A DNA stretch of 33,276 nucleotides, taken from assembly GCA_017452505.1 (NCBI GenBank), contig JAFTMI010000006.1, forward strand, positions 1 through 33,276, written 5' to 3'. The translations under genes and the position numbers were made by a program. The notes below the pieces were generated by a model. That model had not been told where the DNA came from. It did no database searches and saw only the letters and a list, made by a program, of their open reading frames with translations. The DNA comes from Oscillospiraceae bacterium. GTDB lineage: Bacteria > Bacillota > Clostridia > Oscillospirales > Oscillospiraceae. Positions 3,517-23,700 of the stretch are shown one piece after another. Each line of letters opens with the position of its first letter. Within the stretch, counting starts at the first letter, position 1.

Positions 3517-6500
3517 TTATTCCACAATTCCCAGGTACTCTTCCATCTGGTTTAAGTCCAGGCGCAGCAGCTTACTGATACCCTGTTCCTGCATAGTCAC
3601 ACCGTACAGCACATCGGAAGCTTCCATAGTACCACGGCGGTGGGTGATGACGATAAACTGGGTCTTGGAGCTAAGATTCCGCAGGTAAGAGGAAAAACGC
3701 TCCACATTCCGGTCATCCAAAGCTGCATCGATCTCATCGAGCATACAGAAGGGCGTGGGCCGCACCTTCAGAATCGCAAAGTACAGGGCGATAGCCACAA
3801 AGGCCTTCTCGCCACCGGACAGCAGTGTAATAGTCTTGACCTGCTTTCCGGGAGGCTGCACACGAATTTCAATGCCACAGGTCAAGGGATTCTCCGGGTC
3901 TTCCAGCAGAAGCTGGCCCTTACCACCCTGGAACATTTCTTCAAAGACCTTGCCGAAGTATTCATTGATCTTGGCAAATTCCGTTACGAAGATCTCCGTC
4001 ATTTGGGTGGTGATTTCCTTGATAATGCCCTCCAGATCCTTCTTTGCGCTGAGCACATCATCCCGCTGAGAGGTCAGGTAGGTATAGCGCTCGTTGACAC
4101 GGGCAAACTCTTCGATAGCGCCTAAGTTGGGAGTGCCCAAGGAAGAAATCTTCCGCTTCAGCTCGGCGATCCGACGGGAAGCTGCTGCCACGGATTCGAT
4201 CTCTGCTTTCTTTTCCACTGCAGTGCCGGGGGTCAAGCCATAAGTATCCCACAGCTTGTCCACGGTGTTCCGCTCCTCTATAAGGGCGGTTTCTTTCTTA
4301 TTTTCAAGCAATGCACAAGCCCGCTCCATATTGAGAATGGACTTGTTTTTCTCCTGGATATCGCCCTCGGTCTTGGACTTTTCCGCCTCAATCCGGGCAT
4401 ACTCGCCCTGGGCATCCTTCATACCCTGGCGAACTTTTGCGATTTCAGCCGCATTTTCTTCCTGCCGCTTCAGCTGGCGCTGGATCTCCTCCTGCAGGCG
4501 GATATTTTCCGCTGCAATGGCATCGATATCGGACAGTTTCCTGCTCTTATCTCCCTCAGCGGCGGCCTGCAGAACCCGTAGGTCAGCAATGTGGGCATTG
4601 GCAGTGGTACGCTCTGCCTCCAAGGCAGCAGAATCGGTACGCAAGGCGTTCATCTGGTCGGTAATTACAGAGGTAGCCTTGTCCGCCTCAGACTGGGTGC
4701 CCTCCAACGCAGCGATTTGCTGACGGGTCTGGGTCAGCTGTTCGGTAAACACACCCACCTGGGCTCGGATAGCAGCCAGCTGCTCCCGGTCAGATGTATT
4801 GCGCTTTTCCAAGTTCTCCAATTCGCGGGTTGCTGCATCCTTGGCATCACAGATGGCCTGCAGCCAGGTTTCCCGCTGACGGACATAACCCTCCTGGGTC
4901 AGCACCTGCTTTTCAGCCTCCTGGAGCTGCTCTCGGGCGGTATTCATCTGGAACTCCACCTGGTCAGCAGCACGGCGGGCCTCCTGGAACTCCGTTTCCA
5001 GGGTTTCCAGCTTGGCAGACAGATCCTTTTCCCGGGCTGCCAGTTTGTCCAGTTCGTTGGCACGGCTCAAGATGCCTGCTTCTCTGTTCACAGAACCGCC
5101 GGTCATAGAACCGCCGGGGTTCACCACCTGGCCGTCTAAGGTGACGATCTTAAAGCGGTTATTATACTGCTTCGCCATCGCGATAGCCGCATCAATATCC
5201 TCAACAATAACGATCCGGCCCAACAGGTCTTCCATCAGATTTTCATACCGTTTTTCAAACTTAATGAGCTTGGAAGCAACTCCCACATAGCCACGGCACT
5301 TTTCAAGGCCGGTTTCCTTCAGCTCTCTGCCACGAATGGAAGACAGCGGCCAAAAGGTGGTACGACCGCCGTTTGTGCGCTTTAAGTAGGCAATAGCAGC
5401 CTTGGCGTCCTGCTCAGTATCCACAACGATCTGCTGCATAGCGCCGCCCAAGGCGATCTCAATGGCCACAGTATACTGATCCTCAGCACGGATCAGCTGA
5501 GAGATAGGACCGTGGATATTCCGCAGAGAACCACCCTTAGCCGCCTGCATCACCTGGCGGACAGACTTCTGATAACCTTCAAAATCCTGCTCCATTGCCC
5601 GGAACGCACGGGCCTTGGCAGAAACCTCGTCCAGCTGGTTGCGGAGCTTCTGCACCTGCTCAGCCAGCTCATCCCGGCGCTTTGCACGGGTTGTCTGACG
5701 AAGGGTATAGCCGGCAATGGCATTTTGGTTGGCAGTGACTTCTTCCTGGGCTTTTTTCAGTTCCTTTTGGCAAGCGGTCAGTTGTTCCCGGGCCTCCTGC
5801 TCCTTGGCTTCTCCGGACTGCAGGTCTGCACGAATCTCCTCCGCTCTTTCGGTACTGCCGGCCATATTAGCCTCCAGGGCCTTTTCGTCTGCTTCCCGGG
5901 CAGCTAAGTCGGCTGTCAGATTCACTTCACGGGTCCGCAGCTCCATAAACTGCCGGGTAAGGCCCTGGGCATCGGCGGTCATTGCCATCAGCTGCTTTTG
6001 CAGTGCTTCCAGTTCGGCTGCCTTTTGGGCTACGATGGTATCAATCTCAGCAATACGGGCTGTGGCCTGCTCCATCTGGACTGTCAGACCACTGCTGCGG
6101 TCTTCCTGTCCCTGCAAATCCTCCTTGCTGCGGGCAATGGTTTCTTCGTTATGCTTAACAGTGCTTTCCAGCACTGCAATTTGTCCTTCGATCTGCTGGT
6201 GCGTTCCCTCCAGCAGAGAGACCTGGTCACGAAGGGTATCTACCGCGCTGTTCTGGTGGCGCAGCTGGGCACCCATCTGCTCAGCAGACAAGTACATTTT
6301 CTCCAAATCATCATGGGCCTGCTGCAGCACAAAGGACGCAGAAGTATAGTCCTCCGCTGCCTTCTTTGCCTCGGCAGAAAGCTTGTCCAACTTATCCAGC
6401 CAAACAGCCACTTCGATACCCTGCAATTCGTCACGAAGCTCCAAATACTTGGATGCCTTCTCAGACTGCACACGCAAAGGCTCTAATTGCAGCTCCAGTT

Positions 6501-12188: not shown

Positions 12189-14462
12189 TTACTTTGTATA
12201 GCCCATATGGATCCAGCCGGTGGCAATTCTGCCCCAGGTGGCGCCATCCGAAGCCTTCTTGGTTTCCAAAATATCTACCTTAGAGCCATAGTAGAGATAC
12301 CCTACAATGGCATTTTCCGTGCCGGCATCTCTGCGAACACGCAGGCAGTCGGCAATGATAGTTTTGGTAGTCTTTTGGGTGGTGGGGGTGGTAGGCGTGG
12401 TAGGTGTTGTCTGGGTCTGGGCCTTATCCAGGATCACATAGTCCATGGAAATCCAGCCTTCCACGATCTTGCCCCATTTCATACCGCCAACAGTTTTCTG
12501 CTCGGTGATGGTTACCTTCTGCTTGGGAGACAGGTAGCCTGCCACCGCATAGGAAGTACCGGGGCCGCTGCGAATGCGCAGCCATTCCTGGACATTTACT
12601 GTGCCGGTCACAGCATTTGCCGGTGTTGTGGGCTGGGTGGTTGTGTTGTCGGCATTGCCGGTGCTGGTGGTCTGATCGAACTTCACATAGTTGATGCAGA
12701 TCCAGCCATTGGCTATCTTACCCCATTCCAACGTGCCATTGATCTTGCGTTCCGTAATCGTAACGGATGCGCCTTGGGTCAAGTAGCTGACAATGGAATA
12801 GGTCGTACCGGGGCCGCTGCGAATCAGCAGCTCTGTGGCAGTTACCTTGCCGGTTTGTGCGCCGGTACTGCCGGTATTGCCGGTATTGCCGGTGCTGCCG
12901 CTTGCAGGCTTATCCAGGATCACATAGTCCAGGCTGATCCAGCCCTTGGTAATACGACCCCAGGTCGTTGCGCCCACGGTCTTCTGCTCCAGGATCTCCA
13001 CCTTTTCCTTGGGGCCAAGGTAACCGGCAACAGAATAGGATGTGCCGGGGCCGTTACGGACACGCAGCCATTCCTGCACATTGGTAATGCCGGTGACCTT
13101 GGTCTGCTCCGGCTTTGCAGGGGCGGTAGTAGGCGCTACAGTGGGTTTCGCTGTTGCGGCTGTTGCAGCCGTGGGTTTGGCAGTTGCGGTGGTAGCAGCT
13201 GTAGGCTTGGTGGCCTGGCTGTTGATAACAGTTTCGTAATTGGTGTACTGCAGAGCGATCCAGCCCTTTTCGGATTTACCCCAAAGGTATCCGGTGCCGG
13301 TAGCGGTTTCCGTGATGGTCAGCTTATCGCCCTTGGTAGCCACGCCCACTCTTGTATAGTTGGTGCCGGGCCCCTGGCGCAGGTTCACATCAACACCGGT
13401 TACGGTAATATTTACAGGATCCTGCTTTGTAGTATTATTCTCAGCCGGAGCTTTTCCGCCGGCGTCCTTCCACTGGGCATACAGGGTCTTGCCCTTGGTG
13501 GAGGCATTCAGAACAGTAACCTTGGTGCCGCCGGACTTAGCGGTGAACCAGCCCTGGAAGGTATAACCTGCATAGGTAGGAGTCGGGAAGGGCTTGGCTG
13601 TAAGCTTGGCATCATAGCCCTGGCTCCGGGGACTGGTCGTGCCACCATTGGCATCATAAAGAACATAACAATAATGATCCGGAGGATTTTGGCTGTAAAC
13701 ACCGTTAAGATATATATTTGCCTCACTCAGGCGGCGGCGCAGCAGGAAGCTCTTGATCTCACCGCCGGCACTGCACCACAGGGCAAAGGCCCGGATCAGA
13801 TCGTTGCCTTTATATCCCTTTGCAATGGCTGTATGGAATGTGCCGTTGGTTTCGTAGCACCAACCGGTACCACAGTTAAAGGAGAACAGCACCAGCGCAT
13901 CAAACTGGTTCTGCGTCAGCTTAAGGCCATACTTATCAATAACCTTTTTGTTGATATCACGCTCGATCTTGATGAGGTGATTGCGAAGCAGTGTTTCAGC
14001 TTCCTTCTCGGTGATACCGTTTTGGGTATAGTACTGGACCATATCACTGGGGCAGCTTGTGCCGTAACCCACAGTGTACTGGGTGTAATCCCAATAGGGC
14101 TTTCTGCTGAAACCTTCCTCTGCCTTCAGCACACGGATGCAGTCATTGCTGGCATGCATACCGGGCTCAGTAGGCTGGCTTGCAATGGTGGGCTTCACAG
14201 TGGGCGCCACGGTAGCCTTGGTAGTAGGCTTCGTAGTAGGCGCAGTCGTGGGAGCCGTTGTCGCCTTTGTGGCAGGCGCGGTAGTGGCCTTTGTTGTGGG
14301 TTTGGTAGTCGGCGCCGTGGTAGGCGCGGTAGTCGGTTCTGTTGTAGGCGCCGTTGTGGGCGCAGTAGTACTTTGTGCCGTTTCTGCCCAGGCTGTAGCA
14401 GGCAGAATGCTGAGCAGCATAATCACCGCCAGTAACAAACTGGTAATTCGTTTCTTCACCAA
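12189..14462 (-). CDS. Secreted lysozyme (GH24-type) with InlB-type repeat and five SH3b domains
   Basis: Order of parts: signal peptide (KKRITSLLLAVIMLLSILPATAWA, cut near residue 26); a Thr/Pro/Ala spacer of TAPTT and TKPTT units (about 29-100); a phage-T4-like GH24 lysozyme domain with E116, D125 and T130 (EEGF, PYWDYTQYTVGYGT) and the LTQNQFDALVLFSFNCGTG motif; a Listeria-Bacteroides repeat (YDANGGT to LYAQW, about 270-335); then five bacterial SH3 domains with RxGPGTxY cores. SH3b domains 2 and 4 are nearly the same (NVQEWLRxRxGPGTSY). The protein should cut peptidoglycan outside the cell while the SH3b domains hold the wall. The start is non-ATG: TTG 14462 or GTG 14459, six or nine bases after AAAGGAG. 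No phage genes are nearby, so it is a resident wall hydrolase. Confidence 0.9.
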   Translation of the reverse strand: MVKKRITSLLLAVIMLLSILPATAWAETAQSTTAPTTAPTTEPTTAPTTAPTTKPTTKATTAPATKATTAPTTAPTTKPTTKATVAPTVKPTIASQPTEPGMHASNDCIRVLKAEEGFSRKPYWDYTQYTVGYGTSCPSDMVQYYTQNGITEKEAETLLRNHLIKIERDINKKVIDKYGLKLTQNQFDALVLFSFNCGTGWCYETNGTFHTAIAKGYKGNDLIRAFALWCSAGGEIKSFLLRRRLSEANIYLNGVYSQNPPDHYCYVLYDANGGTTSPRSQGYDAKLTAKPFPTPTYAGYTFQGWFTAKSGGTKVTVLNASTKGKTLYAQWKDAGGKAPAENNTTKQDPVNITVTGVDVNLRQGPGTNYTRVGVATKGDKLTITETATGTGYLWGKSEKGWIALQYTNYETVINSQATKPTAATTATAKPTAATAATAKPTVAPTTAPAKPEQTKVTGITNVQEWLRVRNGPGTSYSVAGYLGPKEKVEILEQKTVGATTWGRITKGWISLDYVILDKPASGSTGNTGNTGSTGAQTGKVTATELLIRSGPGTTYSIVSYLTQGASVTITERKINGTLEWGKIANGWICINYVKFDQTTSTGNADNTTTQPTTPANAVTGTVNVQEWLRIRSGPGTSYAVAGYLSPKQKVTITEQKTVGGMKWGKIVEGWISMDYVILDKAQTQTTPTTPTTPTTQKTTKTIIADCLRVRRDAGTENAIVGYLYYGSKVDILETKKASDGATWGRIATGWIHMGYTK

Positions 14463-15801: not shown

Positions 15802-15829
15802 AAACCGGAAGCTCGGCTTCCGGTTTTTT
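15801..15829. terminator. Bidirectional terminator between mnmA and the AraC-type regulator gene
   Basis: AAAACCGGAAGC pairs with GCTTCCGGTTTT around a three-base loop. It serves mnmA on the plus strand and the regulator gene on the minus strand, whose stop lies at its edge. Confidence 0.9.
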
Positions 15830-16712
15830 ATTTCACGATAGATTGGCGGTACTGACTGGGACTCATATTGGTGGCATCCCGGAAGCATTTGGAAAAGTAC
15901 TGAGGAGAATCATAATGCAAAAGTTCCGAGATCTGCGCTAAAGTATGGCGATTTTCCCGAATCAGCTTTTTTGCCTCCCGGATCTTTAGTCCATTGTAGT
16001 AATGCATAATGCCACCGGGATAAAATTCGCGAAAAAGGGCTTTTACCGTACTTTCTGACTTCCTGACCGCTTTTGCCACATCCGAAACAGTCAAACGGCC
16101 ATAAACATTGGCTTGCAGCACATCCAAAATTTCCTTAATTTCAAAATTCACCGCCACGCCGTCGATCTGCACGCTTTGGCGGCTTATTTTTGTCAAGCTC
16201 TCCCTGTGGCGATACAAGCTGATAAGGAATATTTCCAGCAGATTGCGAATCATTTGAAAACCGCCAAAAGGCGCATCCGGCAGCGCATGCAAATTTTGCA
16301 GCAAAGGATTATTGGGGTTTTCCAACCGAAAGCAGGCCAAACCCTCAGACATCAACAAGGAAAGTAATCTTTTTTCCTCCGCGTTCAGCTGCAGAATTTT
16401 GCCCTCAAAATGCTTCATAGCCACGCTGTCACATTCAAAGGTCAGAATGCTCACATTGGGGGCGTTTTTTCCGTCACCGGACAGATTGTGGTACTCGTTT
16501 GGTTTGTGAAAAGTGACCTCACCGCTTTTTAAGGTAAATTGGTTTTTGTCTGCTGTGCAGAACATTTCACCTTTGTCGATATACACCATTTCCCAAAAAT
16601 CATGCCGCTCACCGTCATTGCGAAAGTCCTTTGACAGCTCCATATAGAATATGGTAATGATTTTTCGGATGTGGATCACTCCCGGAAGACCTTGTCTAAT
16701 AAATTTGTCCAT
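15828..16712 (-). CDS. AraC-family transcriptional regulator, probable regulator of the adjacent sugar operon
   Basis: A 294-residue protein with an N-terminal cupin-type sensing domain (HDFWEMVYIDKGEMFC, LKSGEVTFHKPNEYHNL) and a C-terminal double helix-turn-helix (about 195-294: LTVSDVAKAVRKSESTVKALFREF, then LAQISELLHYDSPQYFSKCFRDATNMSPSQYRQS). The cupin domain in this family usually binds a sugar. The gene is divergent from the deacetylase operon, with about 100 bases between them holding shared repeats (16739-16794), so it very likely controls that operon and itself. ATG 16712 is preferred over an in-frame TTG six bases upstream; the ribosome-binding site is weak in both cases. The ligand is unknown. 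Confidence 0.9.
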   Translation of the reverse strand: MDKFIRQGLPGVIHIRKIITIFYMELSKDFRNDGERHDFWEMVYIDKGEMFCTADKNQFTLKSGEVTFHKPNEYHNLSGDGKNAPNVSILTFECDSVAMKHFEGKILQLNAEEKRLLSLLMSEGLACFRLENPNNPLLQNLHALPDAPFGGFQMIRNLLEIFLISLYRHRESLTKISRQSVQIDGVAVNFEIKEILDVLQANVYGRLTVSDVAKAVRKSESTVKALFREFYPGGIMHYYNGLKIREAKKLIRENRHTLAQISELLHYDSPQYFSKCFRDATNMSPSQYRQSIVK

Positions 16713-16738
16713 ACGCAAAACCCACTTTGTCTGATTTT

Positions 16739-16794
16739 GTTAGTATTATATCCGATTTTCCATTTTTCTGCAAGTATAAAATCTTTATACTAAC
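16739..16794. promoter_or_regulatory. Divergent control region with candidate AraC operators
   Basis: The minus-strand promoter for the regulator is TTGCAG (16773-16768), 17 bases, TATAAT (16750-16745). On the plus side a -10 such as TATACT (16786-16791) has no good -35, which fits activator-dependent transcription. GTTAGTAT occurs at 16739-16746 and inverted at 16787-16794, and AGTATAAA (16773-16780) faces TTTATACT (16784-16791) across three bases. These repeats overlap both promoters. Confidence 0.6.
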
Positions 16795-16814
16795 CTTAGA
16801 AAGGAGGTATGCGT

Positions 16815-17522
16815 ATGTATACCGTTTTAGTAATTTCCTGTCATCCCGACGATATGGAGATCGCCTGCGCCGGCACGCTCTTAAAATGCAAGGAGCGGGG
16901 TGACCGGGTGGTAATCTGTCATCTGTCCAGCGGTAATCTGGGCCATGTAGTGATCCCTCCCGATGAACTGATCAAAATGCGGGCCAAGGAAGCAGAGCGC
17001 TCCGCCCAATTGGCAGGCTTCGAAGTCATTCACAGTTTCTTTGACGATTTGGAGATCTACGACAACAACAAAGAAGCGCGGGACAAAGTAGTGGAGGTGA
17101 TCCAGCAGGTTGACCCCGATTTCATCATCACCCACGACCCTAACGACTATATGCCCGACCACACAGCGGTTTCCCGGTTGGTATTCGATGCCAGCTTCAC
17201 TGCTACCCTGCCCAACTATCCCACCAAGACCGGCAAAGCCGCAAGATTGGTGCCTATCTACTATATGGATACCCTGGCAGGTGTGAACTTTAATCCCACG
17301 GAATATGTGGATGTATCCGACCACATTGACAAGAAACTCCAGATGCTGGAGTGTCATGAGACCCAAGTGGTATGGATGCGGGATCACGACGGCATTGATT
17401 TCCCCGATATGGTAAAAACCTGCTGCCGCTACAGAGGTTTCCAGTGCGGCGCAGAGTATGCTGAGGGCTTCCGCCAGTGTCAAGTCTACTTAAAAGGAAC
17501 TACAAAACGGCTGCTGCCGTAA
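16815..17522 (+). CDS. PIG-L (LmbE-like) family N-deacetylase
   Basis: 235 residues starting [23 protein letters not shown]. The HPDD motif and the later PDHTAV ([16 protein letters not shown]) are the zinc-binding and catalytic elements of the PIG-L/LmbE family. Members remove acetyl groups from N-acetylglucosamine-containing substrates such as GlcNAc-malate, GlcNAc-inositol or diacetylchitobiose. ATG 16815 is used because AAGGAGG (16801-16807) is seven bases upstream; ATG 16809 is one base from that site. It is the first gene of a four-gene operon with a NagB-like protein, PfkB kinase and MtlD-like dehydrogenase, so its substrate is probably an imported N-acetylated sugar. No transporter or bacillithiol gene is nearby. 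Confidence 0.88.
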
Positions 17523-17535
17523 GGAGGATATAAAT

Positions 17536-18483
17536 ATGGATTTTAATTCTACTGTTAAAGGTTCTGCCCTGGAGGGCTTTTATCCTGCCGGTTGGGATTT
17601 TGCCAAGATTGATGCCTGCATAGGCGCGCCGGAAACTATTTGCGACCGGCAGGCTTTTTGGAATCCCGCTTTTAACCCTGTACAGTGCGAGAGCCTGGGC
17701 GAGTTTGAGACCTATATGGGTCATGAGATCGCCATTCAGATCAAGAACGCCGCTGACCGGGGCGAAAAGATCGCTTTCATTCTGCCTGTCGGCCCTATGG
17801 GTATGTACAAATGGGTGGTTTACTTCCTGAAAGAGTGGAAGGTATCCTGCAAGCACGTTTACACCTTCAATATGGACGAATGGGCAGATGCCGACGGCAA
17901 CACCCTGCCCTCTGACAATCCCGGTGCTTTCCAGTATGCAATGGAGCAGGCGCTGTTCAATCCCTTAGGTGAGCTGACCGTTCCCGCTGAGCAGCGGAAC
18001 TTTGCCACCAAGGAGAATCTGCCCACCTATCCCGAAAAGATCGCTAAGCTGAAGGCAGAGGGCGCTAAGCTGGTGCTGGTTTACGGCATCGGCAGAATGT
18101 GCCACATTGCTTTCTGGGAGCCCACCTTTGCCGCTGATTATGCAATCGCTGCAGAATGGGAGAAAGCACCCTACCGCATCGCTGCCAAGATCCACCCTCT
18201 GACTGTGGAGCAGAACGCACTGACCAGCTTCAAGTCCCGCACCACTTTGGTCCCCTGCCGGGCCAACACCATCGGCCCCGGCCTGTTCCTGCAGGCGGAT
18301 TATGCCATTGGCGGTGCTGACGGCGTATTGAGCCGCGGCATGCAGTGGCAGGGTCTGTCTCTGTGGATGACTCTGCGCCACGGTGTGGATCCCTGGATCA
18401 CCTCTTCCTATATTCCCACCTTGGCAGGCAGACTGTTCTTCTTGAAAGAACTGGCCGGCCCCCTGGAAGCTGAGTGCAACTGA
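17536..18483 (+). CDS. NagB-like (glucosamine-6-phosphate deaminase/isomerase family) protein with altered active site
   Basis: 315 residues, longer than the roughly 240-270 of NagB. The family motifs are visible but changed. FNMDEW (111-116) matches FNMDEY, keeping the catalytic Asp. [13 protein letters not shown] (184-196) matches GxGxDGHIAFNEP but has Met for the Asp and Cys for the Gly, while His190 and Glu195 are kept. PVGPMGMYK (84-92) is a shortened form of the sugar-phosphate loop. SRTT at 234-237 is retained. An AAGGAGG site is eight bases upstream of the ATG. Bacteroidetes have similar proteins in which a NagB-like domain is fused to a PIG-L domain (from memory), which fits the gene order here. 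True glucosamine-6-phosphate deamination is doubtful. Confidence 0.8.
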
Positions 18484-19466
18484 TGAAAGCTTTCGAGAGA
18501 AAAGGTATTGCCGTCGCAGGCAGCATCTTGGTTGACAAGATCAACGAAATCAGTGCGTATCCTCCTGCCGGTGAACTGACACAGATCCGCAGCATTCAAT
18601 ATGCCGCCGGCGGATGTGTTCCCAATGTAGCTATAGACTTAAAGAAAATTGCCCCAAGCCTTCCGGTACGAGCCGTTGGCAAAATCGGTAACGACTCCGA
18701 GGGCAAATTCCTTTCAAGTCTTCTGTTAGCCAATGGTGTTTTCACCCAAGACCTTGCAGTTATGGATGGCGAAAAAACCAGTTTCACCGAGGTTATGAGC
18801 ATCCCCGGTGGACAACGGACCTTCTTTGTTTACCCCGGCGCCAGCGCAGATTTTGGCATTGCAGATATGGACTTTGGTGCCATTCACGCGAAAATCCTTC
18901 ATCTTGGCTACTTTTTGCTGCTGCAAAAGGTAGATAACGGCGATGGATTAAAAATCCTGCAGGCAGCAAAGGAACGCGGTATAGAGACATCCATTGACTT
19001 AGTCAGCGAAAACTCCGACAGATACAACCTTGTTCTGCCCTGTCTTCCCTACACTGACTATCTCATTGTAAACGAGTTAGAGGCCGGCAGACTGGCTGGG
19101 ATAGAGCCTATCACTGAAAATTTGGAGAGAATTGCGCGACGGTTAATGGAATTGGGTGTGCAAAAGAAGGTCATCATTCATATGCCGGAGCGATCTGTAT
19201 GCTTGAGCAAGGAAGGTTATAGCGTTCTTGGCTCTTACATCCTTCCCGATGGTTATATCCAAGGCACCACCGGTGCCGGTGATGCTTTCTGCGCCGGTGC
19301 GTTGATCGGCATTTACAACGGTTGGAACGATATGGCGATTATGGAATTTGCATCAAGCTGTTCTGTTATGGCGCTAAGCTGCCCGGATGCTACCGGCGGC
19401 ATGAAAACAGAAACAGAAATCAAAGACTACTGTAAGCAATTTACAAGACGGGAGGCAGGACAATGA
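18483..19466 (+). CDS. PfkB-family carbohydrate kinase
   Basis: 327 residues of the ribokinase fold: GSILVDKINEI near the start, the GG-containing substrate region YAAGGCVPNVAIDLKK, GKIGNDSEGKFL, and the C-terminal signature GTTGAGDAFCAGALIG with its catalytic Asp. The family phosphorylates sugars, nucleosides or sugar phosphates with ATP. The start codon overlaps the previous stop (TGATG) and the next gene also overlaps by four bases, so the operon is translationally coupled. By context it should phosphorylate the deacetylated sugar or the product of the NagB-like enzyme; the substrate cannot be fixed from motifs. Confidence 0.9.
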   Translation: MKAFERKGIAVAGSILVDKINEISAYPPAGELTQIRSIQYAAGGCVPNVAIDLKKIAPSLPVRAVGKIGNDSEGKFLSSLLLANGVFTQDLAVMDGEKTSFTEVMSIPGGQRTFFVYPGASADFGIADMDFGAIHAKILHLGYFLLLQKVDNGDGLKILQAAKERGIETSIDLVSENSDRYNLVLPCLPYTDYLIVNELEAGRLAGIEPITENLERIARRLMELGVQKKVIIHMPERSVCLSKEGYSVLGSYILPDGYIQGTTGAGDAFCAGALIGIYNGWNDMAIMEFASSCSVMALSCPDATGGMKTETEIKDYCKQFTRREAGQ

Positions 19467-20674
19467 AGGCAGTTATGTACGGCGGCGGCAATATCGGCAG
19501 AGGCTTTATCGGACAACTTCTAAGCCAATCCGGTTATGAAGTCACCTTTATTGATGTAGCCGATGCCGTGGTTGATTCCTTGAACAGCGAACACAAATAT
19601 CCCGTCCGAATTCTTTCCAATGAGGGTCACAGGGATATTGAAGTCACCAACGTCCGTGCTGTTCACGGCAATAATACCGAAGCGGTCGCCGATGCCATTG
19701 CAAATGCAGATATTATGGCAACTGCTGTGGGTGCCAGAATTTTGAAATTCATTGTTCCCAATATTATTGCAGGCTTGCGCAAGCGCTGGGCAGAAAACAA
19801 ACCGCCATTGAATATTATCATTTGCGAAAATCTGATGGATGCCAACAAGGTTCTGGAGCAAATGCTGAAAGAGCAGCTCACGGTCGAAGAACAGAGTCTT
19901 TTCGACGAAACCGTCGGTTTGGTCGAAGCATCCATCGGTCGAATGGTACCCATTCAAACAGAAGAAATGAAAGCCGGTGAACCTATGCGTGTTTGCGTGG
20001 AAAGCTACGGCTTCTTACCTGTGGACAAAGCTGCTTTCCTTGGTGACATCCCCAATATCAAAAATATGGTCCCCTTTGAACCCTTTGATTTCTACATCAA
20101 GCGCAAGCTATACCTGCACAATATGGGCCACGCGATCTGCGCGTATTTAGGTGATTTATTGGGCTTGGAGTACATTTACCAAGCGATTGATGTACCGGAA
20201 ATCAAGATCATTGTACAAAACGCAATGCTGGAAAGCGCCATTGCCCTTTCCAAGACCTATCGTGTCCCCCTGGAAGAACTGCTTTGCCATACTGAAGATC
20301 TGCTGTATCGGTTCACCAACAAAGCATTGCAGGACACCTGCAAGCGTGTGGGTGGTGACCCGGCCCGAAAGCTGTCTGCCCAGGACCGGCTCATTGGTGC
20401 CTCTTCCCTTGTAATGCAAACCGGAGAAACCCCGGTTTATATCGCTATCGGCTGCGCCGCCGGTCTGCATCGGTTGGTTGCTGAAAGCGGTTTGGAACAA
20501 ACTCTTGAAAATGCCAAGGCCACACTGCTGCAAACCTCCGGTTTGGCAGAAAATGACCGTCTTACAGCACTGGTCTTAGAGATATATGAAAAGATCCTTG
20601 CCGGTGAGACTCTGGCTCAGCTGCGGCATTTCGGACAAGAAGAAAAAGCCACTAACAGGCACAATGTAATTTAA
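19463..20674 (+). CDS. Mannitol-1-phosphate 5-dehydrogenase family protein
   Basis: 403 residues with an N-terminal NAD-binding motif MKAVMYGGGNIGRGFIGQLL and the long-chain polyol dehydrogenase core: ICENLMDANKVL, GLVEASIGRMVP, and KRKLYLHNMGHAICAYLG, which matches the K...N-x-G-H catalytic pattern of MtlD. Such enzymes interconvert fructose-6-phosphate and mannitol-1-phosphate or similar polyol and ketose phosphates. There is no mannitol PTS gene in the window. Last gene of the AraC-linked operon, with a GGGAGG site upstream and an ATGA overlap with the kinase gene. The real substrate may be another sugar or polyol phosphate. Confidence 0.85.
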   Translation: MKAVMYGGGNIGRGFIGQLLSQSGYEVTFIDVADAVVDSLNSEHKYPVRILSNEGHRDIEVTNVRAVHGNNTEAVADAIANADIMATAVGARILKFIVPNIIAGLRKRWAENKPPLNIIICENLMDANKVLEQMLKEQLTVEEQSLFDETVGLVEASIGRMVPIQTEEMKAGEPMRVCVESYGFLPVDKAAFLGDIPNIKNMVPFEPFDFYIKRKLYLHNMGHAICAYLGDLLGLEYIYQAIDVPEIKIIVQNAMLESAIALSKTYRVPLEELLCHTEDLLYRFTNKALQDTCKRVGGDPARKLSAQDRLIGASSLVMQTGETPVYIAIGCAAGLHRLVAESGLEQTLENAKATLLQTSGLAENDRLTALVLEIYEKILAGETLAQLRHFGQEEKATNRHNVI

Positions 20675-20684
20675 AACGTAAAGT

Positions 20685-20719
20685 AAAAAACACATCCACC
20701 TAAGGTGGATGTGTTTTTT
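20685..20719. terminator. Bidirectional terminator between the sugar operon and the ABC transporter gene
   Basis: CACATCCACC (20691-20700) pairs with 20704-20713 around a TAA loop, with A-run and T-run on either side. It ends both convergent units. Confidence 0.92.
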
Positions 20720-20722
20720 GTT

Positions 20723-23700
20723 TTATTCAGTTCGCAGAGCCACAACGGGGTCTTTCTTGGCTGCGCTTCTGGAGGGGATAATACCGGAGAACAAAGTCAG
20801 CAAAACACTGATCAGCACCAGCACGATCGCCACATTCCAGGGCAGCACTGCCCGCAGATTGGCAATGTCGGTAAGAGCAAAGAGGATCACATTCACCACA
20901 GCGCACAGGCCGTAGGTCACGATCACTCCCAGCAAACCGGATGTGAAGCCTATGATCATCGTTTCCGCATTGAACATACCGGACACATTCCGCTTGGATG
21001 CGCCGATAGCCCGCAATATTCCGATCTCCTTTGTCCGCTCCTGGACAGAGATCAAGGTGATAACGCCAATCATAATGGAAGACACCACCAGAGAAATGGC
21101 CACAAAGGCGATCAGCACATAGGTGATGGCATTGATGATGGTGGTAATGGAAGACATCATAATACCCACATAGTCGGTATAATGGATCTGCTGCAGCTCC
21201 TCCACAGAATCGTTGTAGGCGGAAATAACCTCTTCCACCACATCCTTATTCTCAAAGCTGGAGGCATACAGATTGATGGTTGCCGGGTCATCCAGATCCA
21301 CATCGCTGAGCTTACGCAGGTTCTGCTCATAGGTGGAGTCGGAGAACTCCATCACGCTGTTATAGCAAACCGTATACTGCTCCGGAGTATACTTCATCAA
21401 GTCTGTTTGCAGCATCAACAGCTTATTCTCCATAGGCATCTTGTAGCATTGCTGCAGGCTCATCATCACAGTGACCAACTCTGCCTGGGGATTGGTTTCA
21501 CCTTCCGGAAGTGTGGTCGCATCTCCCTGGGGAATGGTCGCACCCAACTGAGGAGTGGTTGCGCCAACCTGGGGAGCGGTTGCACCAGCCTGGGGCGCTG
21601 CATCAGCAGATTCCTGGACCAATCTGGGATCTACCATCTTTACAAGGTTATCCTGCAGAAGCTTGCGCAGCTCTGCATCCTTCATATTCTTGATGTAGCT
21701 GGTCGCCGCCTGGATGTCGATACCCTCTTGCTGACCCAGTGCGTCAAGCACTTGCTTCTCCATAGTCTCCCGGGTCATAGAAGCAAGCATCCCATCCACA
21801 GCAAGGGCCACCTGCATATCCATATACACTTCAGCCTGCTCCTCGGGCGTTAAGCCGTCGATATGTTTCACCAGGAGATCTCGCATTTCCTCATGGGTGA
21901 TCGCATCGCTGTTGGGGAACGGCATACCGGTGAAAATATCCATTGCAGGATCCTGCTTTTGCGCCTCCAGCGCAGCAGATTCCAAATTCTTTTGGGCAAC
22001 GAACTCCGTGAGCATCTTGGTGTAGCCAATAGAGCCGGTAAGCATAGTGGAGCTGGCCTTCTCACTGGGGCGAATAATACCGGTGACTTTCAGCTTCAGC
22101 GCATTATCATAAAGCTGCCTTAATTTAACGGAATCCGCCCGCTTATCCACATACAGACCGGTAGCTGCATCCTTCTCATAGCAATCAGCATTGAGGATCA
22201 CACGGAATTCCTTGGCACAAATTTCCTCGTAGGACCATTTTTTCTGATCGGCATCAACCTCTTCGCCCTTCATAATGGCATTGAAGCTGTCCTCGATCTT
22301 ATCGTGGGATTCCAGGCCCAGGGCATACATAGTCAGATCGTCCAGTTCATTATTCTCATTGACCACCAGCACGATCTCATTATAGCTATTGGGCCAGCTG
22401 CCGTAGATCACATCATACTGATCTTCCAGCACAGGGTTAACGGGGCTGCCGTCCTTGCCGGAAAGAAGTTCATTCCACAGCTTCATTTCCATACCCGGCA
22501 TTTGCATTCCCATACCGCCGCCCATATTTTCACCCATGGACATCATAGAGGACATATCCATTCCCATAAAATCCTTAAGCGCTTCGGCAAGCAGCTGCTG
22601 GGTATCAGAATAGACGATGTTACCTACAGGGTCCTGGGTATACACCAGCAGATCCATATCGTAGGTATACTGGATGCCGGTCAATGCCTCAGATAGTTTA
22701 TTCTCCTCTTCCGGCTTCTGCATTTCCTGCTCCAAATAGGTCTTAAAAGCCTTCAGGTCATTTTCCGTGGACTCCATATTGTTCAGGGCATTGATCATAT
22801 CCGCCATTACGGAAACAGAATAGACCGCGTCCTTATCGTGAGCAGATTCCCCATCGGTTTCCTTGCCCATAAAGGTTTCCATCAAGGTGCCGATGTCCAC
22901 CGTAGTCGCTTCCAGGGTCAGCGGATAAGAAGACAGGGTATCCTCCTGGACAGCATTGATGTAGGTGGTCATACCGTTGGACACCGCATAGATCAGCGCA
23001 ATACCGATGATGCCGATAGAGCCTGCAAAGGAGGTCAGCGCGGTACGACCCTTCTTGGTAAACAGGTTCTTTAAGGAAAGGCCAAAGGAAGTACTCCAGG
23101 ACATGGAGGGTTTCCGGACAGCCTTCTTCTTGACGGATGCCGCCTGGGTCTCCTCTTCCTCGCAGGCCTTCTGTTCCTCTTCGTTCAAGGGCGCGGAGTC
23201 ACTGGTGATCTCGCCGTCCAGCATCCGAATGATACGGGTGGAGTAGGTGTTGGCCAGGTCCGGGTTATGGGTGACCATGATCACCAACCGGTCCTTGGCA
23301 ACTTCCTTCAAAATCTCCATAACCTGCACACTGGTTTCTGTATCCAATGCGCCGGTGGGCTCGTCAGCCAAAATGATGTCCGGGTTATTCACCAACGCAC
23401 GGGCAATTGCCACACGCTGCATCTGTCCGCCGGACATTTGGCTGGGCTTTTTCTTCAGCTGATCACCCAGGCCCACCTGCTCCAGCACGGCTTTCGCCCG
23501 CTGGCGGCGCTCCCGCTTGGAAACACCGGACAGGGTCAGCGCCAGCTCCACATTCTGCAAAACGCTCTGATGGGGAATCAGATTGTAGCTTTGGAACACA
23601 AAGCCGATGGAGTGGTTGCGGTAAGTATCCCAATCCCGGTCCTTATACTTCTTGGTGGACCGGCCATCGATCACCAAATCGCCGCTGGTATACTTATCCA

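Follow-up and report, generated by a model that had tools for sequence, protein, structure and literature searches.

The DNA analysed here, a stretch of 33,276 bp from an Oscillospiraceae bacterium (contig JAFTMI010000006.1; 'the window'), carries at 15828–20674 an operon of four plus-strand genes encoding a PIG-L deacetylase, a relative of the deaminase NagB (hereafter NagBL), a PfkB-type kinase and an MtlD-like dehydrogenase, with a divergent gene for an AraC-family regulator. An earlier note, made from the sequence alone, had described this arrangement, and it was confirmed: all five open reading frames (ORFs) lie where it placed them and match the families it named, NagBL by phmmer and by fold. 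The close or overlapping spacing that it reported was also found, with 13 bp between PIG-L and NagBL, overlaps of 10 bp (NagBL/PfkB) and 4 bp (PfkB/MtlD), and 90 bp to the regulator. The features are:

15828–16718, minus strand: AraC-family regulator with a cupin-like sensor domain (PF12833 (HTH_18), E 3.7e-14; PF02311 (AraC_binding), E 1.4e-4)
16719–16808, no strand: divergent intergenic region of 90 bp, presumed to hold the operator and promoters (from coordinates)
16809–17522, plus strand: PIG-L/LmbE-type deacetylase (PF02585, E 3.3e-28)
17536–18483, plus strand: NagBL, of NagB fold and without the NagB phosphate site; proposed free-amino-sugar isomerase/deaminase
18474–19466, plus strand: PfkB/ribokinase-type kinase, proposed ketose kinase (PF00294, E 5.2e-31)
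19463–20674, plus strand: MtlD-like polyol(-phosphate) dehydrogenase (PF01232 and PF08125)
20685–20719, listed on the minus strand: terminator-like hairpin of 16 pairs, between the operon and a convergent ABC transporter gene

NagBL has no Pfam match at 1e-3 and reaches 46.7 bits with the NagB model TIGR00502, below the cut-off of 236.9. It matches NagB (1cd5) at 1.9e-8 in phmmer, and its AlphaFold model has the NagB fold. In NagB, residue D72 has a role in catalysis, while the TG[SG][ST]P loop, R172 and K208 bind phosphate. The catalytic His143 of NagB contacts Glu148, according to PMC4008608. We picked 29 canonical NagB sequences by the motif around H143 and aligned 10 of them with 15 window-like NagBL representatives selected in two sets, of 9 and 6. 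The equivalents of D72, H143 and E148 are kept in all 15 representatives, and the phosphate-site residues are gone in all 15. The motifs of the phosphate site (loop, R172 and K208) occur in 28, 28 and 21 of the 29 canonical sequences, and in none of 111 distinct NagBL. NagBL thus seems to have lost the sugar-phosphate pocket, and this favours a scheme in which the sugar is deaminated first and phosphorylated later; because of this loss, a plain glucosamine 6-phosphate (GlcN6P) deaminase was not our first choice. It is unlikely, in our estimate, that NagBL is not a deaminase and instead interconverts aldoses and ketoses, or hydrolyses its substrate like other lactonase-type members of the wider NagB/6PGL/RpiA fold, in a pathway for an aminocyclitol, a diamino sugar or another glycoside; against the lactonase version counts the HIAFWEP signature. 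At one locus, L039, the NagBL match (5510–6454) is split into two ORFs, this copy from a metagenome-assembled genome being broken or misassembled.

The deacetylase is a clear member of the PIG-L/LmbE family (PF02585, 99.2 bits against a gathering score of 28.2) and has the HPDD motif. Of 94 family members, 92 carry HPDD, and 70 also show a PDH motif further along. Its nearest relatives by sequence are BshB1 and diacetylchitobiose deacetylase, and it matches PDB 8bgn at E 2.9e-21; assignment as the bacillithiol deacetylase BshB1 was rejected, since TIGR04001 gave 127.1 bits, less than the cut-off of 182.5. Both PIG-L and NagBL match model NF002557 weakly and in different parts (3.3e-7 and 3.4e-4). 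This model (PRK02122) we take to represent two-domain NagB–PIG-L proteins, unlike which the window has two separate genes.

When GTDB contigs were scanned for NagBL, at least 576 related stretches were returned, the best 80 of which were kept; these are 84–98% identical, all labelled as Clostridia-type or uncultured bacteria, and many are from ruminant hindgut. Operon content was counted for 112 loci with distinct NagBL (121 records minus five duplicates and four without an ORF more than 55% identical to NagBL: L074 and L101–L103). Operons were delimited mechanically as genes with gaps below 250 bp, and several of their extra members are housekeeping or unrelated; since many loci stop at contig ends, gene counts are lower bounds. 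PIG-L was present in 87 operons and PfkB in 69; 39 have a class II aldolase, 30 a Gfo/Idh/MocA protein, 14 MtlD and 6 a DegT aminotransferase. In many loci an AraC relative adjoins PIG-L on the opposite strand. The order was sampled with 295 genomes, of which 40 have NagBL (44 matched; four with only a 28% paralogue, described below, were set aside), 43 have PIG-L, 38 have both and 250 neither (Fisher p 6e-40, genomes treated as independent), and the two genes lie within 5 kb of each other in 32 of the 38. In a sample of the phylum, 8 of 398 genomes matched NagBL at 1e-30, the genome of the window included. The conserved co-occurrence that the earlier note had named as a test therefore holds for PIG-L with NagBL, PfkB joining them in the 69 of 112 operons; MtlD is not a constant member. 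Proteins of about 650 residues recur beside NagBL in L035, L049, L055 and L064; the scanned member of their cluster, L089, has a DUF4838 domain, and they are possibly an uncharacterised group of glycosidases.

The remaining enzymes were compared with curated models. The window kinase is nearest to the ribokinase model (87 bits, below cut-off) and scores 38.6 bits against TIGR03168, the model for 1-phosphofructokinase and hexose (sugar-phosphate) kinases, whose cut-off is 216.4; YdjH is among its PDB matches. Both domains of the MtlD-like protein exceed gathering scores (Mannitol_dh N domain, E 9.8e-41; C domain, E 2.4e-23), its best score against curated MtlD is 287 bits with a cut-off of 356, and it matches mannitol-1-phosphate 5-dehydrogenase (PDB 3h2z) at E 3.7e-61. 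For the class II aldolase found in operons of relatives the top PDB match is YdjI. A serine of the distal-phosphate loop has a role in fructose-bisphosphate aldolases; in the operon aldolase this position is alanine in 46 of 47 rows, which agrees with a ketose 1-phosphate as substrate and not a bisphosphate.

Aldolase and MtlD never share an operon: none of the 112 has both, with 4.9 expected under independence (p 0.0015), and neither does any of the 69 with PfkB (37 with aldolase, 14 with MtlD), where 7.5 are expected (p 3e-6; loci counted as independent in both tests). In a tree of 53 NagBL sequences the aldolase/MtlD label changes seven times, at least four of the changes being forced by supported branches. 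Given this exclusion and the repeated switches, MtlD seems to stand in for the aldolase, and it does so in differing gene orders; our guess is that it makes a polyol phosphate by reducing the ketose phosphate. The earlier proposal that the product is linked to a polyol phosphate can thus fit the MtlD variant only. In the genome of the window, which is 82.5% complete, the operon aldolase has a single match, 46% identical and located where a contig ends, and there is no close Gfo/Idh/MocA protein (best 31%).

The same genome contains a second, sister operon:

L101:4272–12041 (G000:C10): two genes that are ceramidase-like by similarity, a NagA relative, a paralogue of NagBL and a kinase of the FGGY family

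The paralogue is 28% identical to NagBL and lies between the NagA relative (157 bits; NagA cut-off 225.65) and the FGGY kinase, whose nearest model is that of xylulokinase, with 356.7 bits for a cut-off of 380.25. We collected 15 loci with such paralogues (L101–L103, L164 and L176–L186; L176 and L181 are short loci or stop close to the gene, and the paralogue's frame in L182 was absent from the ORF picks). A NagA relative is present in 11 of them and an FGGY relative in seven, four of the latter at only 28–31% identity. The HHR.PG motif is gone in all ten sister-operon NagA relatives that were aligned. NagB relatives that lack the usual phosphate site are accompanied in the two systems by deacetylases of two unrelated families and by kinases of two unrelated families. 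The substrates of FGGY kinases are free sugars, which suggests that here, too, deamination precedes phosphorylation. An L101 ceramidase-like protein has no PDB relative at E 0.1, and the start of a gene in this operon resembles the triosephosphate-isomerase-like L185:8585–9280.

At about 37% identity to NagBL, PIG-L still stands beside it in three of five loci (L159–L161). These three share genes for PIG-L, NagBL, DegT, Gfo/Idh/MocA and a ceramidase-like protein; L159 and L161 also have what by eye is a ROK-like regulator. In these deep relatives the gene set may be a sign of an amino sugar that bears two amino groups. In the other two, L157 and L158, no PIG-L was seen; there the distant NagBL lies beside a ceramidase-like gene and genes that by eye resemble a sugar ABC transporter. 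L157 also has an AAC(3)-like acetyltransferase gene, perhaps for a sugar N-acetyltransferase.

We propose that the operon serves catabolism of an N-acetylated amino sugar in which deacetylation and deamination precede phosphorylation, a reading to which we assign a probability of roughly 0.46. PIG-L would deacetylate the sugar in its free form or as part of a small glycoside. NagBL, with its acid/base residues kept, would turn the free 2-amino-2-deoxy aldose into a free ketose and ammonia, and PfkB would phosphorylate the ketose, most likely at C1. In many relatives the class II aldolase would then split the ketose phosphate into dihydroxyacetone phosphate and an aldehyde; in the lineage of the window MtlD would act instead, perhaps disposing of electrons by reducing the ketose phosphate, with a polyol phosphate as the product. 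The whole set would be controlled by AraC. The earlier note, which our data support in part, had the sugar deacetylated, phosphorylated and only then isomerised or deaminated; this order is disfavoured by the loss of the NagBL phosphate site and by the FGGY kinase of the sister operon, and deamination before phosphorylation probably fits better.

Its claim of an amino-sugar pathway other than the standard route for N-acetylglucosamine (GlcNAc) gains support. Like the canonical Nag pathway, the proposed route joins deacetylation to isomerisation/deamination of a 2-acetamido sugar by a NagB-fold enzyme; unlike it, the operon uses PIG-L and not NagA, its NagBL has no 6-phosphate site, and a kinase with aldolase or MtlD accompanies NagBL. 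The absence of NagA and canonical NagB was correctly stated for the operon and does not extend to the genome, where NagA (G000:C10) and NagB (G000:C31) exceed their cut-offs elsewhere. In archaeal chitin catabolism a PIG-L enzyme, diacetylchitobiose deacetylase, likewise acts on unphosphorylated GlcNAc units, but there glucosamine is phosphorylated before deamination, whereas here deamination would come first. The ydj cluster of E. coli resembles the operon in its PfkB kinase (YdjH) and aldolase (YdjI) and differs in that the ydj gene table of PMC9602453 lists neither deacetylase nor deaminase.

The Aga pathway for N-acetylgalactosamine (GalNAc) has, according to PMC12118421, a similar order of deacetylase, deaminase, PfkB-type kinase and class II aldolase (AgaA, AgaS, LacC and KbaY/GatY). 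Taken with the class II aldolase of the relatives, this likeness invites a more conventional explanation, namely that NagBL is a diverged deaminase of the type acting on GlcN6P or galactosamine 6-phosphate, fed by a kinase or phosphotransferase system (PTS) elsewhere, and that PfkB makes a ketose bisphosphate for the aldolase. We consider this quite unlikely: the phosphate-site motifs are lost throughout NagBL, the kinase falls far below the sugar-phosphate kinase cut-off, the distal-phosphate serine of the aldolase is replaced, and the genome has NagA and NagB in other places. The operon differs from the Aga system in its deaminase candidate without a phosphate site and its ribokinase-like kinase, and the aldolase of its relatives differs in the altered distal-phosphate loop. 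No PTS, AgaS or pre-deamination kinase was recognised in the window operon, the part of the genome searched for these.

Several observations weigh against a route through free sugars. At the position of NagB D141, NagBL has Met, Val or Cys and never Asp or Asn, so its chemistry may have changed. The AlphaFold model is weak near the active site, with predicted local distance difference test values (pLDDT) below 50 at 187–192, 220–240 and 264–268, and in this weakly modelled area K233, R235, R242 and R267 are invariant in 39 aligned NagBL, which would allow another grip on a phosphate or acid in the clade of the window. In the sister operons, nine of the ten aligned NagA relatives have Lys or Arg at the Arg column of HHR.PG, and the deacetylase there may still bind phosphate; we therefore dropped the loss of this phosphate-loop Arg as an argument. 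In L157:2291–10813, which was scanned, the NagA relative exceeds the NagA cut-off. The DegT, Gfo/Idh/MocA and ceramidase-like genes of the deep relatives have no use in our scheme, and known kin of MtlD act on 6-phosphates, which is awkward with a C1-phosphate. Finally, the window operon has no glycosidase and, as the earlier note had observed, no sugar transporter.

The basic residues raise the alternative that NagBL, in what would still be amino-sugar catabolism, takes a charged substrate, acidic as a uronic acid or through a phosphate at another position, and holds it by these conserved residues. Besides their invariance, these residues are mostly kept in the 15 window-like representatives, and YdjH and YdjI, relatives of the operon's kinase and aldolase, favour long-chain sugars with a carboxylate end according to PMC9602453. 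Yet in the 37% subfamily K233, R235 and R267 are non-basic, only R242 remaining basic (as Lys), while PIG-L still adjoins in the three loci mentioned. We regard a charged substrate as rather unlikely and retain the free amino sugar as the preferred reading.

The likeliest sugars are GalNAc or GlcNAc. GalNAc is only hinted at by a single operon, L051, where a gene with a GH123 domain and, by eye, genes like those of ABC sugar transporters are found; GH123/DUF4091 proteins are described as beta-N-acetylgalactosaminidases in PMC11087588. At other loci there are genes of GH30 and GH94 and genes for a fucosidase and a sulfatase, so this hint is not decisive.

As to signals in the window, a consensus promoter scan of 16600–20800 gave five sites with 4.5 expected, none of them in the divergent region 16719–16808. 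The AraC start (TTG, 16718) is a mechanical ORF start, and the true one may be further in. Nine terminator-like sites were found in the whole stretch (4.9 expected), among which the stem at 20685–20719 is by far the longest. Outside the operon, the minus-strand frame at 12189–14462 encodes a long protein with proline/threonine-rich linkers and what by eye resembles a lysozyme-type domain with a series of SH3-like repeats after it.

A broader generalisation is that a phosphate-last route for amino sugars arose on two or more occasions among Firmicutes. A family of NagB fold that isomerises and deaminates free hexosamines would have been recruited once with PIG-L, PfkB and aldolase or MtlD (the latter as a polyol-phosphate electron sink) and once with a diverged NagA and an FGGY kinase; we offer this as a doubtful possibility. 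Among the titles listed in literature searches, which leave out most subscription papers, none dealt with this set of genes or with a relative of NagB that uses free hexosamines, and to our knowledge NagB-family deaminases all act on 6-phosphates. If true, our proposal would mean a different logic for amino-sugar use and a NagB-like family without a 6-phosphate site. Such genes would be easily mislabelled as GlcN6P deaminase, and pathway models of gut Clostridia could therefore misassign them.

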